DNA of 64,000 nt from a virus: positions 1 through 64,000 of the IMG/VR virus record IMGVR_UViG_3300025154_000006. One strand, 5' to 3'. Each line of letters starts with the position of its first letter. Positions within the stretch are counted from its first letter, which is position 1. Position numbers and translations under genes: made by a program. Below the pieces are notes generated by a model that searched no databases, had not been told where the DNA came from, and saw nothing but the letters and a program-made list of their open reading frames with translations. This document shows positions 668 through 60,043 of the stretch, one piece after another.

Positions 668-1354
668 ATGAATTCTGGCATCTATCAAATAAGGAATAAG
701 ATTAACAATTATATATACATTGGATCTGCTGTATCTATAACAGAAAGATGGACTGAACATATTCGTAGACTTAACAAGAATAAGCACCATAGTCGTCATC
801 TTCAATCTGCCTGGAATAAGTATGGTGAAGAAAATTTTGAGTTTTCTATTCTCGAAGAATGCGAGAAAGAGCAACTGGTCGAACGAGAACAGTATTATCT
901 GGATACGCTTTGTCCTGAATATAATGTCTGTAAGATTGCATATAGTCAATTAGGAATGAAGCATACTCCAGAAGCGCGAGAGAAAATGTCTATTTCGCGA
1001 AGAGGAAAAATATGTACGGCGGAAACCCGTAAAAAACTATCAGAAAAAGCGAAGGGAAGAACTTTTTCTCAACAATGGCATGAACTTCAAAGCATATCTC
1101 ATAGAGGCTATAAGCCAACTTAGGAAGCTGTACTTAATATGTCTAAGGCCCAGTTAGGAAGAAAACATTCCCAAGAGACAAAAGATAAACAAGCTCTTTG
1201 GCATAAGGGAAGACCTCGTTCTCCAGAAACTATAATAAAAATGTCTATTGCGAATAAAGGGAAAAAGGCCAGTCCAGAGACTCGCAGAAAAATGTCAGAA
1301 GCGCGTATAAAATACCTTTTATCTTTAAAAAAAGAAAATGAGGAAACTACATGA
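668..1354 (+). pseudogene. GIY-YIG homing endonuclease, broken by an in-frame TAG
   Basis: Residues 1-151 carry the GIY-YIG nuclease domain (GIYQIRN, then YIGSA), followed by NUMOD3-type DNA-binding repeats. A TAG at 1121-1123 interrupts it, and the same frame continues with more NUMOD3 repeats (HSQETKDK, SPETRRKMSEA) to 1354. An intact homologue of 253 residues lies at 59282-60043 on the other strand, which supports one original gene of about 228 codons. The stop codon overlaps the ATG of the next gene. TAG is used as a normal stop elsewhere here, so recoding is unlikely. The N-terminal fragment alone could still be a nuclease with reduced DNA targeting. Confidence 0.8.
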
Positions 1355-6148: not shown

Positions 6149-6646
6149 ATGAAGAAAACTAACGTATGTAGTAGATGTGGGAAAGGTCCGAAAGTAAACA
6201 GATCTTGGTGCAGAGAATGTTTGCGAATATATGATCAAGAGTATCGAAAGCGAAATGCCAAAAGATTAAAAATTTATCGAAACAAGTATCAATTAACTGT
6301 TTATAAAGAAAAAAAATCGGTATATGACAAGAAACACAAAGCCCAAAATAAAGAACATTATAGAGAAAAATCTAAACAATGGAGTCGTCAACTTAGATTG
6401 GATATATTATCTCATTATGGCGGAAAATGTGTTTGTTGTGGAGAAACAAGAACAGAATTCCTTGCAATGGATCATATAAATGGTGGAGGTAATATACACA
6501 GAAAAAGCATAACCACTACTATATACAGATGGCTAAAAGCAAACAATTACCCCGATACTTTTCAGATATTGTGCCATAATTGTAATGCATCAAAATCTTT
6601 TTATGGGTATTGTCCACATCAAAAGGAAAAAGAAAATGTCAATTAA
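6149..6646 (+). CDS. HNH homing endonuclease, 165 aa
   Basis: An N-terminal zinc knuckle (CSRCGK, WCRECL) and a long basic helical linker are followed by the HNH domain: GGKCVCCGE, then MDHINGGG, then FQILCHNCNASK. The DH, the later H/N residues and both CxxC pairs are present, so the nuclease looks intact. It is free-standing, with its own promoter, and its 3' end overlaps the start of the phosphoesterase gene. This suggests insertion next to, not inside, a functional gene. Confidence 0.85.
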   Translation: MKKTNVCSRCGKGPKVNRSWCRECLRIYDQEYRKRNAKRLKIYRNKYQLTVYKEKKSVYDKKHKAQNKEHYREKSKQWSRQLRLDILSHYGGKCVCCGETRTEFLAMDHINGGGNIHRKSITTTIYRWLKANNYPDTFQILCHNCNASKSFYGYCPHQKEKENVN

Positions 6647-7969: not shown

Positions 7970-8022
7970 GACAGACGGCATTCTTCTTTTAGAGTTATTT
8001 TTAGCAAAGAATGCCGTCTGTC
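7970..8022 (+). terminator. 16-bp hairpin between transcription units
   Basis: Perfect 16-bp stem (7970-7985 with 8007-8022) with a 21-nt loop, followed by GCATTTTACAG. Together with the terminator at 7699 it separates the small-gene block from the replication block. It could also be a processing or attenuation structure. Confidence 0.55.
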
Positions 8023-44983: not shown

Positions 44984-47147
44984 TTAGGGCGCGGGCGGTT
45001 CGATCACGCCACCGGGTTTAGCCAGAGAGACGCCAACAAAGTGCAACTCGAAACTATTGGGTTCCCAAACCGAGATACCGCCAACGAAATCCCAAGTAAA
45101 GCGATACACCGAGTTGAAGTCATCCACAGGAACCGGTTCGTAGAACTCAAGAGGCTTATTGACGTTGCCCTTCAAGCCACCACCGGAACCAAGTGCCAGA
45201 CAGAAACCTACATGCGTACCCTTGGTGACATAAGCATACACGCCACTAGTAAGTTCAGTGGTGTAGTTGCTCATAATCGGACGATCAAACGATAAGCGAT
45301 AGTAACCGCTTGAAGGATCTTCATCGCGATCAATGGCAACAATGCGCCGAACGATAGTCTTGCCAGAACGGAAATTCACACCATTCGTAACACCGTAATC
45401 AGAAGTACGCAGGGTATGAATAGTAACCTGATCGTTGACGGCAAAGTCGCTTGCGCCAAACGCAGAACAGGAGATATAGTGCGTAGCATCTTTCTGACCA
45501 ACGTACCAGGTACCGTCAACGGCAGTAGTTTCGGGATCAGGAGAACCAGCGCCAGCCGCGATAGGAGAAGTAACCGTGACCTGTTTGGCAATCTTGCCGC
45601 AGTTATAGAGAACCGCAGGATTTTGACCATAGTTGTCATTCGGCGCTTCAACAAAGCGGACGTTCTTGTAAGTCGTTTTTGTTACTTTCTGTTATAATAA
45701 GGTCGGTATTTATTTGACAACCACATTCTCAAGGAGTAAAACATGTTTGAAAATATAAGTCCTATTTGGAAAGCAGAATTTCGAGGATTTTTTCTTGCAG
45801 ACGGATGTGCAATTCTTTTGATGGATCATCATTCAAGATACAAAAGCATTCCTCTTATTCGACCATTGTTAGTAATTGGACTTAGATACGACGATAAGAG
45901 CGTTATTGATGATTTCAAATCTACACTGGGCATTGGTTCCATTTCTTTTGTTGAATACTCAAAATATTCAAATACAAATAGTAGAGACCAATTTCGTTGG
46001 TATACAAAAAGCGCTAAACACGTTTTGGCTATTATTGACGAAATCCTATCACCGTCATTATTGCCAGCAAAGAAACAGGTTGATATTTCTTTGGTTAGAG
46101 ATTTCTGTATACTTAGACTTAGTATGCCATATCGTTATGGCGAAATTCATCGTCGTAGTTTACTAGATTTTTATGAGAATGTTTTTAAGGTTCGAGTTGC
46201 CAAAAGAAAACCGGTGGCTTCTTATAAAGAAGATCAAGTCATTTCTGCTTGACTCTGCAACTTCTTATTAGTTGCAGACCAGACTATCGTTTCACTTTTC
46301 AGTGTCTCTTCGCTTAGTCGTTGCTGCTGCACAGGATTTTTCCTTGCTTGCATCGGGTTGCCATCACAGGTTTTCCCGTTATTCAGAAGAGATTTTTAGT
46401 CGGCAGTTAGTTTAGGTACTGTTTACCGACTTCGTAGCGCAAGGGAGCGCCACCATAGGTCTTGGCGTCTCGCCACAACGCAGCCTCGTTCTGAGAAGCT
46501 GCCGCCAGCGATTGCTGGAAGTCGTAGATACAACCAGGCGGGATAATGACGATTTTTTCGGTCATCAAGCCACCAGGAACCACCGGAGTACCAGTCTGAC
46601 CCAGACGCAAGTTCCATTCGTTCACGATGTCAAGAGAGAACTTGCTAGTACTACCCAAACCAAGGAAATTGGTAGCGCTACCGCCATAGGTCCAGAATGT
46701 CGAGGGGGTCTGGAAGAACGCATTGCGAGAAACACCTTCAATTTTGCGACGCACGTTGTTCGACAGGACAGCCTTCATAATGGGGCGCCAGTCACGGCCA
46801 CCACTCATCTGCCACTGTTGAAAATACGAACTGACTTTATGAACCTGGATTTTGTCGCCGTAGCGCGCCATCGAGGTCGTCCGGAAACGCGAGTCAACGG
46901 TCAGCGGTTCCGGGATATACATCGCATCATACGCGATGGTGTCGGTATTCACGTCAGCATCTAACATGTCTGTAAAGATGGTGGCGTCTGCTCCGGTCTG
47001 GCGACTGCGATCCATCCACTCTACAAGCGGCGTATAGATCACGGGCGCGGTCTGGAAGTTCATAACAACTTGCGCTACGCGATCATCCCAAGTATTTTGG
47101 TCAATCACGGCTACCGGGTTGTTATTGTAATAATCTTCAAGGGCCAT
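44984..47147 (-). CDS. Major capsid protein (N4-gp56-like), two exons, 470 aa
   Basis: Exon 1 is 47147-46425 (241 codons) and exon 2 is 45673-44984 (229 codons plus stop). They are separated by a 751-nt group I intron. The predicted joint reads RYEVG-TYKNVRFVEAPND, a smooth join at a place where N4-gp56 capsid proteins have (G)-x-x-x-R-F-V-E. Exon 1 alone stops after five intron-coded codons (KQYLN). Exon 2 has only an internal GTG and could not be made well by itself. The scaffold and portal genes lie upstream. Product forms the icosahedral shell. Confidence 0.85.
45690..45698 (+). promoter_or_regulatory. Extended -10 promoter of the intron endonuclease
   Basis: TGTTATAAT on the plus strand inside the intron, 45 nt before the LAGLIDADG start codon. 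Same form as the promoters ahead of the other free homing endonucleases. Confidence 0.55.
45743..46252 (+). CDS. LAGLIDADG-type homing endonuclease in the intron, antisense, 169 aa
   Basis: The motif FRGFFLADGCAILL near residue 13 is a LAGLIDADG helix with its Asp. One motif is seen clearly, so the protein probably acts as a dimer. GIGSISFVEYSKY near 65 and FRWYTKSAKHVLAII near 83 match the family core. AAGGAG precedes the ATG. It would cut intron-less capsid genes and spread the intron. Being antisense, it cannot be made from the capsid messenger. Confidence 0.8.
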   Translation: MFENISPIWKAEFRGFFLADGCAILLMDHHSRYKSIPLIRPLLVIGLRYDDKSVIDDFKSTLGIGSISFVEYSKYSNTNSRDQFRWYTKSAKHVLAIIDEILSPSLLPAKKQVDISLVRDFCILRLSMPYRYGEIHRRSLLDFYENVFKVRVAKRKPVASYKEDQVISA

Positions 47148-58983: not shown

Positions 58984-59295
58984 TCAGTATGTGCGATAAT
59001 TGCACTTGGTATTCTCGCACCAAATGTCTTTTCCGTTGGTTGTCAACTTGTTCACAAGGCCGATCTTCTGACATTTAGGACATATTTTGTCAAGATACCA
59101 ACAGGTTTTTGCTGAGTTCGCACTGCGAAGCGGATTAAATATCTTTTCTCTGCATTCCTCGCAAAGCGGAACAAAAATGCCTAAATTGCTTTGCTCCATT
59201 ATGGCGTCTTTTTTGAAGATCGCTTTCTTGCAAACGGTGCAAATAACCGGAGAATGATCAATTAGAAATTGTACAAATTTATTAATCGGGTTCAT
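58984..59295 (-). CDS. Double zinc-ribbon protein, 103 aa
   Basis: Start taken at ATG 59295 (MNPINKFVQFL), overlapping the end of the GIY-YIG gene by 14 bases. CTVCKK with CEECRE and, later, CPKCQK with CENTKC form two zinc sites. A palindrome copy is inside. Function unknown. Confidence 0.65.
   Translation of the reverse strand: MNPINKFVQFLIDHSPVICTVCKKAIFKKDAIMEQSNLGIFVPLCEECREKIFNPLRSANSAKTCWYLDKICPKCQKIGLVNKLTTNGKDIWCENTKCNYRTY
59116..59130. repeat. Dispersed palindrome, copy 19
   Basis: GTTCGCACTGCGAAG, inside the double zinc-ribbon gene; last base differs. Confidence 0.75.
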
Positions 59296-60043
59296 TTTCG
59301 ACAACCTCCACCAACATATTTTCTGCCATCGGAACCAACGCGAGTCTTTTGGCGGCATATTTTTTCTTAAGAGTTAGAGATATTTTATCACGGGTTTCTT
59401 GAGAAACAATTTTTCCTTTTTGTGCCCTAGATATCTTCAGGCGCGCCTCGAGTGATACGGTTTTGCCTTTTTGCGCCAATGACATCTTGGCGCGCGCTTC
59501 TTCGGAAGCGCGTTTTTCATTATGGTTTTTATTCCCAGTTAAAGCAAGAGACATTTTCATACAGGTTTCTTCCGAGTGATGTTTTCCAAGCATACCTCTT
59601 TTATGTCCTTTTAGCGCCCGCGATATTTTCTCGCGGGTTTCGACGGATACGTTTTTCCTTGCGAGAGACATTTTCTCGCGGGTTTCAAAAGACAAATGTT
59701 TTCCAATATTCGCAAGAGACATCTTTAAGCGAGATTCTTCTGTGTGTCTTGTTCCTAGTTTGCTATATGCTTTTTTGCAAATATTGTATTCTGGACAAAC
59801 ACTGTCTATATAATACTGTTCTCGTTCGACCAGTTGCTCTTTCTCGCATTCTTCGAGAATAGAAAACTCAAAATTTTCTTCACCATACTTATTCCAGGCA
59901 GATTGAAGATGACGACTATGGTGTTTTGTTCTTTTTAAGAGAGAAACATGCTCATTCCACCGTCTATCAATATTAATGGCAGATCCGATATATATTTTTT
60001 CGTTAATCACATTCCTTATTTGATAGATGCCTATAAGAATCAT
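59282..60043 (-). CDS. GIY-YIG homing endonuclease, intact, 253 aa
   Basis: GIYQIRN and YIGSAINI form the nuclease core with Arg (RRWNEH) and a Glu in REQYYID. At least six NUMOD3-type repeats follow (EESRLKMSLA, SFETREKMSLA, SVETREKISRA and so on), which bind DNA. It is free-standing between two genes and overlaps both by a few bases. It shares an identical 114-nt stretch with the broken copy at 668. Confidence 0.85.
   Translation of the reverse strand: MILIGIYQIRNVINEKIYIGSAINIDRRWNEHVSLLKRTKHHSRHLQSAWNKYGEENFEFSILEECEKEQLVEREQYYIDSVCPEYNICKKAYSKLGTRHTEESRLKMSLANIGKHLSFETREKMSLARKNVSVETREKISRALKGHKRGMLGKHHSEETCMKMSLALTGNKNHNEKRASEEARAKMSLAQKGKTVSLEARLKISRAQKGKIVSQETRDKISLTLKKKYAAKRLALVPMAENMLVEVVENEPD

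Follow-up and report, generated by a model that had tools for sequence, protein, structure and literature searches.

A probable mobile group I intron, carrying a LAGLIDADG gene in antisense, in a tailed-phage major capsid gene

The 64-kb stretch of DNA analysed here, hereafter the window, comes from a virus record of 83,468 bases. Structural genes occupy the minus strand between about 60 and 21 kb and encode, in turn, terminase-like, portal (PHROG 64), scaffold-like, capsid, connector and tail proteins. Note that the terminase and scaffold names are based on position only. The capsid gene, downstream of the portal gene, is in two parts, and the DNA between them carries an open reading frame on the opposite strand. 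The features are as follows.

46425-47147, minus strand: exon 1 of the major capsid gene, an open reading frame of 241 codons
45674-46424, minus strand: group I intron, 751 nt, with a terminal G (RF00028, 30.0 bits; covariation; conserved 3' element)
44984-45673, minus strand: exon 2 of the major capsid gene, 229 codons plus stop, in frame after joining
46399-46430, minus strand: P1, in which the internal guide GCCGAC (46404-46399) pairs with exon GUCGGU (46430-46425), from the sequence; the 5' splice site has a U.G pair
46255-46392, minus strand: catalytic core P3-P9, from the Rfam alignment and two-sided changes
46392-46386/46311-46305, minus strand: P3
46378-46375/46357-46354, minus strand: P4
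46319-46315/46286-46282, minus strand: P7
46304-46293, minus strand: P8
46277-46255, minus strand: P9
46235-46254, minus strand: P9.1 hairpin AGTCAAGCAGAAATGACTTG, an exact 20-mer family, with a complement that encodes the end of the endonuclease (Q V I S A, TGA)
45674-45686, minus strand: 3'-terminal element AGTAACAA (45686-45679), then AAACG at the 3' splice site, common to BAKA and most relatives
45743-46252, plus strand: homing endonuclease gene (HEG), 169 aa, single LAGLIDADG motif (PF00961, PHROG 33155)
45731-45736, plus strand: Shine-Dalgarno sequence AAGGAG of the HEG, from the sequence, 6 nt before the ATG
45690-45698, plus strand: extended -10 box TGTTATAAT of the HEG, an exact TGNTATAAT site, overlapping the 3' strand of a putative P9.2
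45702-45712, plus strand: operator-like GTCGGTATTTA, 10/11 identical to the joined-exon insertion site GTCGGT-ACTTA

The original prediction was that the capsid frame stops after exon 1 and resumes 751 nt later. Both coordinates and junction proved exact. The joined exons encode 470 aa without a stop, and the junction reads RYEVG-TYKNVRFVE. If unspliced, the exon 1 frame meets a TAA within the intron, giving a 246-aa product. No ATG lies close to the 5' end of exon 2, and its first methionine is far inside, at RPIM. Comparison of the joined protein with N4-gp56 capsid proteins had been suggested as a check. It matched TIGR04387, the N4-gp56 major capsid family, with an E-value of 6.8e-4 and 19 bits, below the family cut-off of 60. 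The match, over aa 192-253, runs across the junction (241/242). Neither exon 1 alone nor exon 2 alone matched a capsid family in the profile search. Since the joined protein scores below the cut-off, the capsid name rests on this match together with gene order. Close relatives of the HEG, capsid and terminase were found neither in IMG/VR nor among GenBank phages, the portal had no close homologue in GenBank phages, and comparison of the capsid with the PDB gave chance matches only. These searches of the two collections thus revealed no near relation of the phage.

We searched the whole window against all Rfam models. Intron_gpI matched positions 46508-46255 of the minus strand (30.0 bits, E 0.00098) and was the sole match with an E-value below 0.8, the next best being 0.84. 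Note that the gathering cut-off for RF00028 is 50 bits, a curation threshold rather than a biological feature, and the intron falls below it. However, with the same model, the RT-PCR-verified introns of LittleE and BAKA score 30.7 and 28.6 bits. Hence, missing the cut-off is not decisive. The P1 pairing of GTCGGT with GCCGAC, and its U-G splice pair, can be read in the sequence as predicted. The 3' splice site follows the G at 45674, and P10 is weak (3 pairs). A group II intron and an intein were set aside, since the RNA is group I and stops interrupt the intervening frame. In addition, ACCGAC at 45703-45708 (minus strand), near the intron 3' end, could form a perfect pairing with the exon 1 end GUCGGU. 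This sequence, the complement of the operator-like stretch, could compete with the guide GCCGAC.

Support for the core comes from alignment with three related introns (L142, L156 and L158). Two-sided changes are present in 15 of 32 core pairs, pairing is seen in 90.6% of cells, and six helices (P3, P4, P7, P8, P9 and P9.1) each have at least one two-sided change. None of 500 shuffles reached these values, and six slid controls were likewise far off. Note that there are four sequences and that the structure is from the window's own sequence; this biases control (b) on percentage paired and does not explain the compensatory counts. P4- and P7-like strands had been noted earlier; P4 and P7 are present in the Rfam alignment, and covary. 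The closest cores, over the full length, are those of L142 and L156.

Among annotated phages, the intron is matched best by 54 nt shared by the LittleE capsid intron and BAKA-type tail introns. These 54 nt contain the hairpin after P9, AGTCARGCAGAAATGACYTG. We found exact matches to the P9.1 hairpin in 32 viral stretches and 19 genome stretches. Across 49 distinct sequences, the R-Y position is G-C in 40, A-T in 8, G-T in 1 and A-C in none. Ahead of P9.1, 47 of these 49 have a P9 stem with 5 or more pairs (mostly 7), and the sequences have, altogether, 27 different P9 5' strands. The 3'-terminal element is also shared. In family members lacking an HEG, AGTAACAA comes after a small hairpin, 13-43 nt past P9.1, near the 3' splice site. 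In HEG-bearing members the distance from P9.1 is 328-700 nt. The published BAKA splice site is GGAGTAACAAACCG followed by AAA (PMC3706429), and that of the window intron reads AAAGTAACAAAAACG followed by ACT. This shared element backs, independently, the 3' splice site chosen in the original prediction. Where the HEG borders the rest of the intron, a putative P9.2 pairing has marginal significance in the window (p 0.05). Introns with the same P9.1 and 3' elements are also present in bacterial contigs (L165-L183), where the 3' flank is often 23S rRNA-like (TGTCGGTCCCTATC). Hence, the P9.1 family seems to be common to phage and rRNA introns.

The plus strand frame, between P9.1 and the 3' element, is opposite to the capsid gene. 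As predicted, its product resembles LAGLIDADG proteins, matching PF00961 with an E-value of 0.0016 (19.8 bits, under the curated cut-off of 23.1) and PHROG 33155 with an E-value of 8e-5. Alignment to I-CpaMI and I-OnuI is weak, and an AlphaFold model made without an alignment was uninformative (pLDDT 38). Position and motif suggest that the protein is likely a LAGLIDADG endonuclease. The frame stops 2 nt short of P9 and overlaps P9.1 only. The last five residues and stop (QVISA-stop) are encoded by the complement of P9.1.

An extended -10 promoter had been proposed for the HEG. The box, TGTTATAAT, is indeed in place about 45 nt upstream of the start, along with the Shine-Dalgarno sequence. The window has six exact TGNTATAAT sites, all on the plus strand, at 531, 6122, 8940, 13695, 16232 and 45690; 2 of 100 shuffles had as many. 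Aside from the HEG site, four of the five are upstream of plus strand ORFs. Hence, the HEG promoter resembles a class belonging to plus strand, probably early, genes, and the six boxes may mark early promoters of the phage. A sigma-70 two-hexamer scan near the HEG found no more sites than in shuffles, so the case for a promoter cites the extended -10 motif alone. The stretch GTCGGTATTTA could be an operator for HEG autorepression. This is suggestive only, since 36 of 1666 other stretches (about 2%) have an equally good junction-spanning match to the insertion site.

Besides the intron enzyme, the phage has three GIY-YIG homing endonuclease genes, at 668-1123 (plus), 59282-60043 (minus) and 80931-81179 of the full record, and an HNH gene at 6149-6646. 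The HNH gene and the GIY-YIG gene at 668-1123 are each preceded by a TGNTATAAT box. Separately, a near-perfect inverted repeat at 7970-8022 is probably a terminator-like hairpin; a microRNA hairpin model hits both of its strands.

Intron endonucleases had been said usually to follow the direction of the host gene. To place the window in this context, we surveyed 50 phage or virus records, mostly collected with an unrelated core pattern, and found group I introns in 39. The 90 intron places, including that of the window, were compared with four endonuclease families. All endonuclease matches within 1 kb of an intron were sense, except those of the window and LittleE, in a sample that is small and pattern-biased, and in which one match (G005) is probably outside the intron. 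The first core pattern tried had found one contig. One record, G036 (also the source of L039), is a contig of 20 kb with twelve matches to group I introns.

Antisense endonuclease ORFs that end with QVISA-stop also occur in LittleE (PF14528), in L137 and L163 (LAGLIDADG_3-like and LittleE-related) and in L151 (HNH_repeat, E 2.7e-30). The L151 intron, judging by its flanks, appears to interrupt a DNA polymerase III gene. Thus, the P9.1 boundary is common to three unlike enzyme types: LAGLIDADG_1-like in the window, LAGLIDADG_3 and HNH-repeat. With three independent cases, sharing of the QVISA-stop frame could be due to chance (about 1 in 9). Long QVISA-frame ORFs in the GC-rich L141 and L147, and a short one in L138, look like exon shadows and were not counted as HEGs. 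Together, the survey and the recurrent ending indicate that antisense genes are rare overall but recurrent in the P9.1 intron family. Use of the P9.1 complement as a C-terminus and stop, also by antisense endonucleases of two other families, is apparently undescribed. Note that the L151 intron, with its endonuclease, spans 1040-2535 and that two more group I introns are within 4.2 kb.

The same spot can also hold a sense gene. In L153, an endonuclease 51% identical to LittleE gp14 is in the same place, in an HK97-type capsid gene, but in the sense direction. Hence, genes at the P9.1-adjacent spot turn round or come in either direction. The sense LAGLIDADG gene of L153 (IMGVR_UViG_3300028792_000013, about 600-1335) has a possible ATG within P9.1 (AGAAATGACC), mirroring the antisense stop at this hairpin.

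The closest known system is the major-capsid intron of mycobacteriophage LittleE (JF937101), published with an antisense endonuclease gene and proven to splice by RT-PCR and protein sequencing (PMC3706429). Like the window intron, it is a group I intron in a capsid gene with an opposite-strand LAGLIDADG ORF (gp14) between P9.1 and AGTAACAA; the ORF ends QVISA-stop inside P9.1 and the Rfam scores are near-equal. However, the capsid family differs, being N4-gp56 in the window and, in the LittleE-side relatives L138 and L153, HK97-type kin, and the insertion site is another. The LittleE endonuclease belongs to PF14528 and has a zinc-finger-like tail, while that of the window is PF00961-like; they are 20% identical. 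The BAKA and Optimus minor-tail introns share the P7-P9-P9.1 region (79% over 53 nt) and the 3' element, but have no HEG and interrupt a tail gene; splicing of the BAKA intron was shown by RT-PCR (PMC3706429). Of the IMG/VR introns, L142 also has an N4-gp56 capsid gene as host (E 2e-10). Unlike the window intron, L142 and L156 are inserted near the capsid 5' end and have a sense ORF upstream of the core, HNH-type by reading of the frames.

More distant parallels exist. The Didymium squamulosum L2066 rDNA intron has an antisense HEG at the P9.2 position, with a proposed promoter of its own, but is a group IE intron in eukaryotic nuclear rDNA that encodes a His-Cys endonuclease and has a spliceosomal intron in the HEG (PMC9548176). 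The T4 td intron is a phage intron with an HEG, for I-TevI, transcribed from its own promoter. The possible homing-site-like operator at the HEG promoter of the window would parallel that of I-TevI. However, I-TevI is a GIY-YIG enzyme encoded in the sense direction, and repression, shown for I-TevI, is only suggested in the window (PMC2988022). In view of LittleE and Didymium, the antisense HEG orientation is unusual but not new. Since LittleE has the same design, the window intron is a further lineage of a known arrangement.

Other explanations must be weighed. The insertion could be a broken element, an intron remnant that no longer splices, leaving capsid only as the 246-aa exon 1 product. 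The Rfam score below the cut-off, and the weak P10, would fit. Yet verified introns score alike, all of the core helices are intact and covary, the exon frame is open over 470 codons and the HEG frame is intact, with promoter and Shine-Dalgarno sequence. Loss of an essential gene would also be implied, and we regard a dead intron as very improbable. Less probable still, and barely credible, is that the locus has two separate genes, one for a short, 246-aa capsid and one for a protein downstream, which flank an unrelated LAGLIDADG gene. While the stop after exon 1 is what two genes would give, the match to the N4-gp56 profile needs the joined protein and crosses the junction; no start lies near the 5' end of exon 2, and the P1 guide pairs exactly with the end of exon 1.

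A further proposal, compatible with the intron reading, is that the antisense HEG transcript pairs with the intron core and regulates capsid splicing. Complementarity to the core was part of the original prediction. For the reading frame this did not hold, since it ends outside P9 and includes P9.1 only; only a read-through transcript would cover P3-P9. We found no strong plus strand terminator between the HEG stop and the core. Hence, read-through RNA would be the complement of P3-P9 and of exon 1. Conversely, with an early-type promoter, the HEG would be transcribed at a different time from the late capsid gene. An antisense effect on splicing, possible only via read-through past the HEG stop, is speculation, and we consider such regulation unlikely.

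We conclude that the major capsid gene of this tailed phage is very probably interrupted by a mobile group I intron carrying an antisense LAGLIDADG gene with its own promoter. The intron reading is supported by the junction-spanning capsid profile, the covariation, the 3' terminus in common with relatives and the matching layout of a verified phage intron. Sequence anatomy, covariation and restoration of the frame are directly evident, as is an architecture in common with verified introns. From these we infer splicing, enzyme activity, early timing and homing. Briefly, the capsid pre-mRNA, made from the minus strand with those of other late structural genes, would fold into P1-P9.1. Guanosine would attack after GUCGGU, with the terminal G at 45674 setting the 3' splice site. 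The predicted spliced RNA has the junction GAAGTCGGT-ACTTACAAG (GUCGGU-ACUUAC), and would encode a 470-aa N4-gp56-type capsid protein. The LAGLIDADG gene, in the periphery (P9.2 position) and on the opposite strand, would be transcribed from the extended -10 promoter. With its own promoter and Shine-Dalgarno sequence there, the HEG could be expressed early, independently of late transcription. Capsid genes that lack the intron would be cut by the enzyme at the insertion site and would gain the intron by copying during repair.

Tentatively, with the odds somewhat against it, RNA and antisense gene ends may be functionally shared. The P9.1 complement would be a ready-made QVISA-stop for three endonuclease families, and the P9.2 position would take genes either way. 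The promoter, overlapping the P9.2 3' strand and the operator, would give an early, self-limited enzyme.

For genome annotation, capsid genes of this type would appear as two broken genes. More broadly, the LittleE arrangement is not a one-off, but belongs to a widespread intron family with endonuclease genes facing both ways at one spot, and a conserved intron RNA hairpin doubles as protein-coding sequence on the opposite strand. This allows tests of how an endonuclease is expressed from an intron in an essential late gene, without disturbing splicing, and of how such genes reverse.
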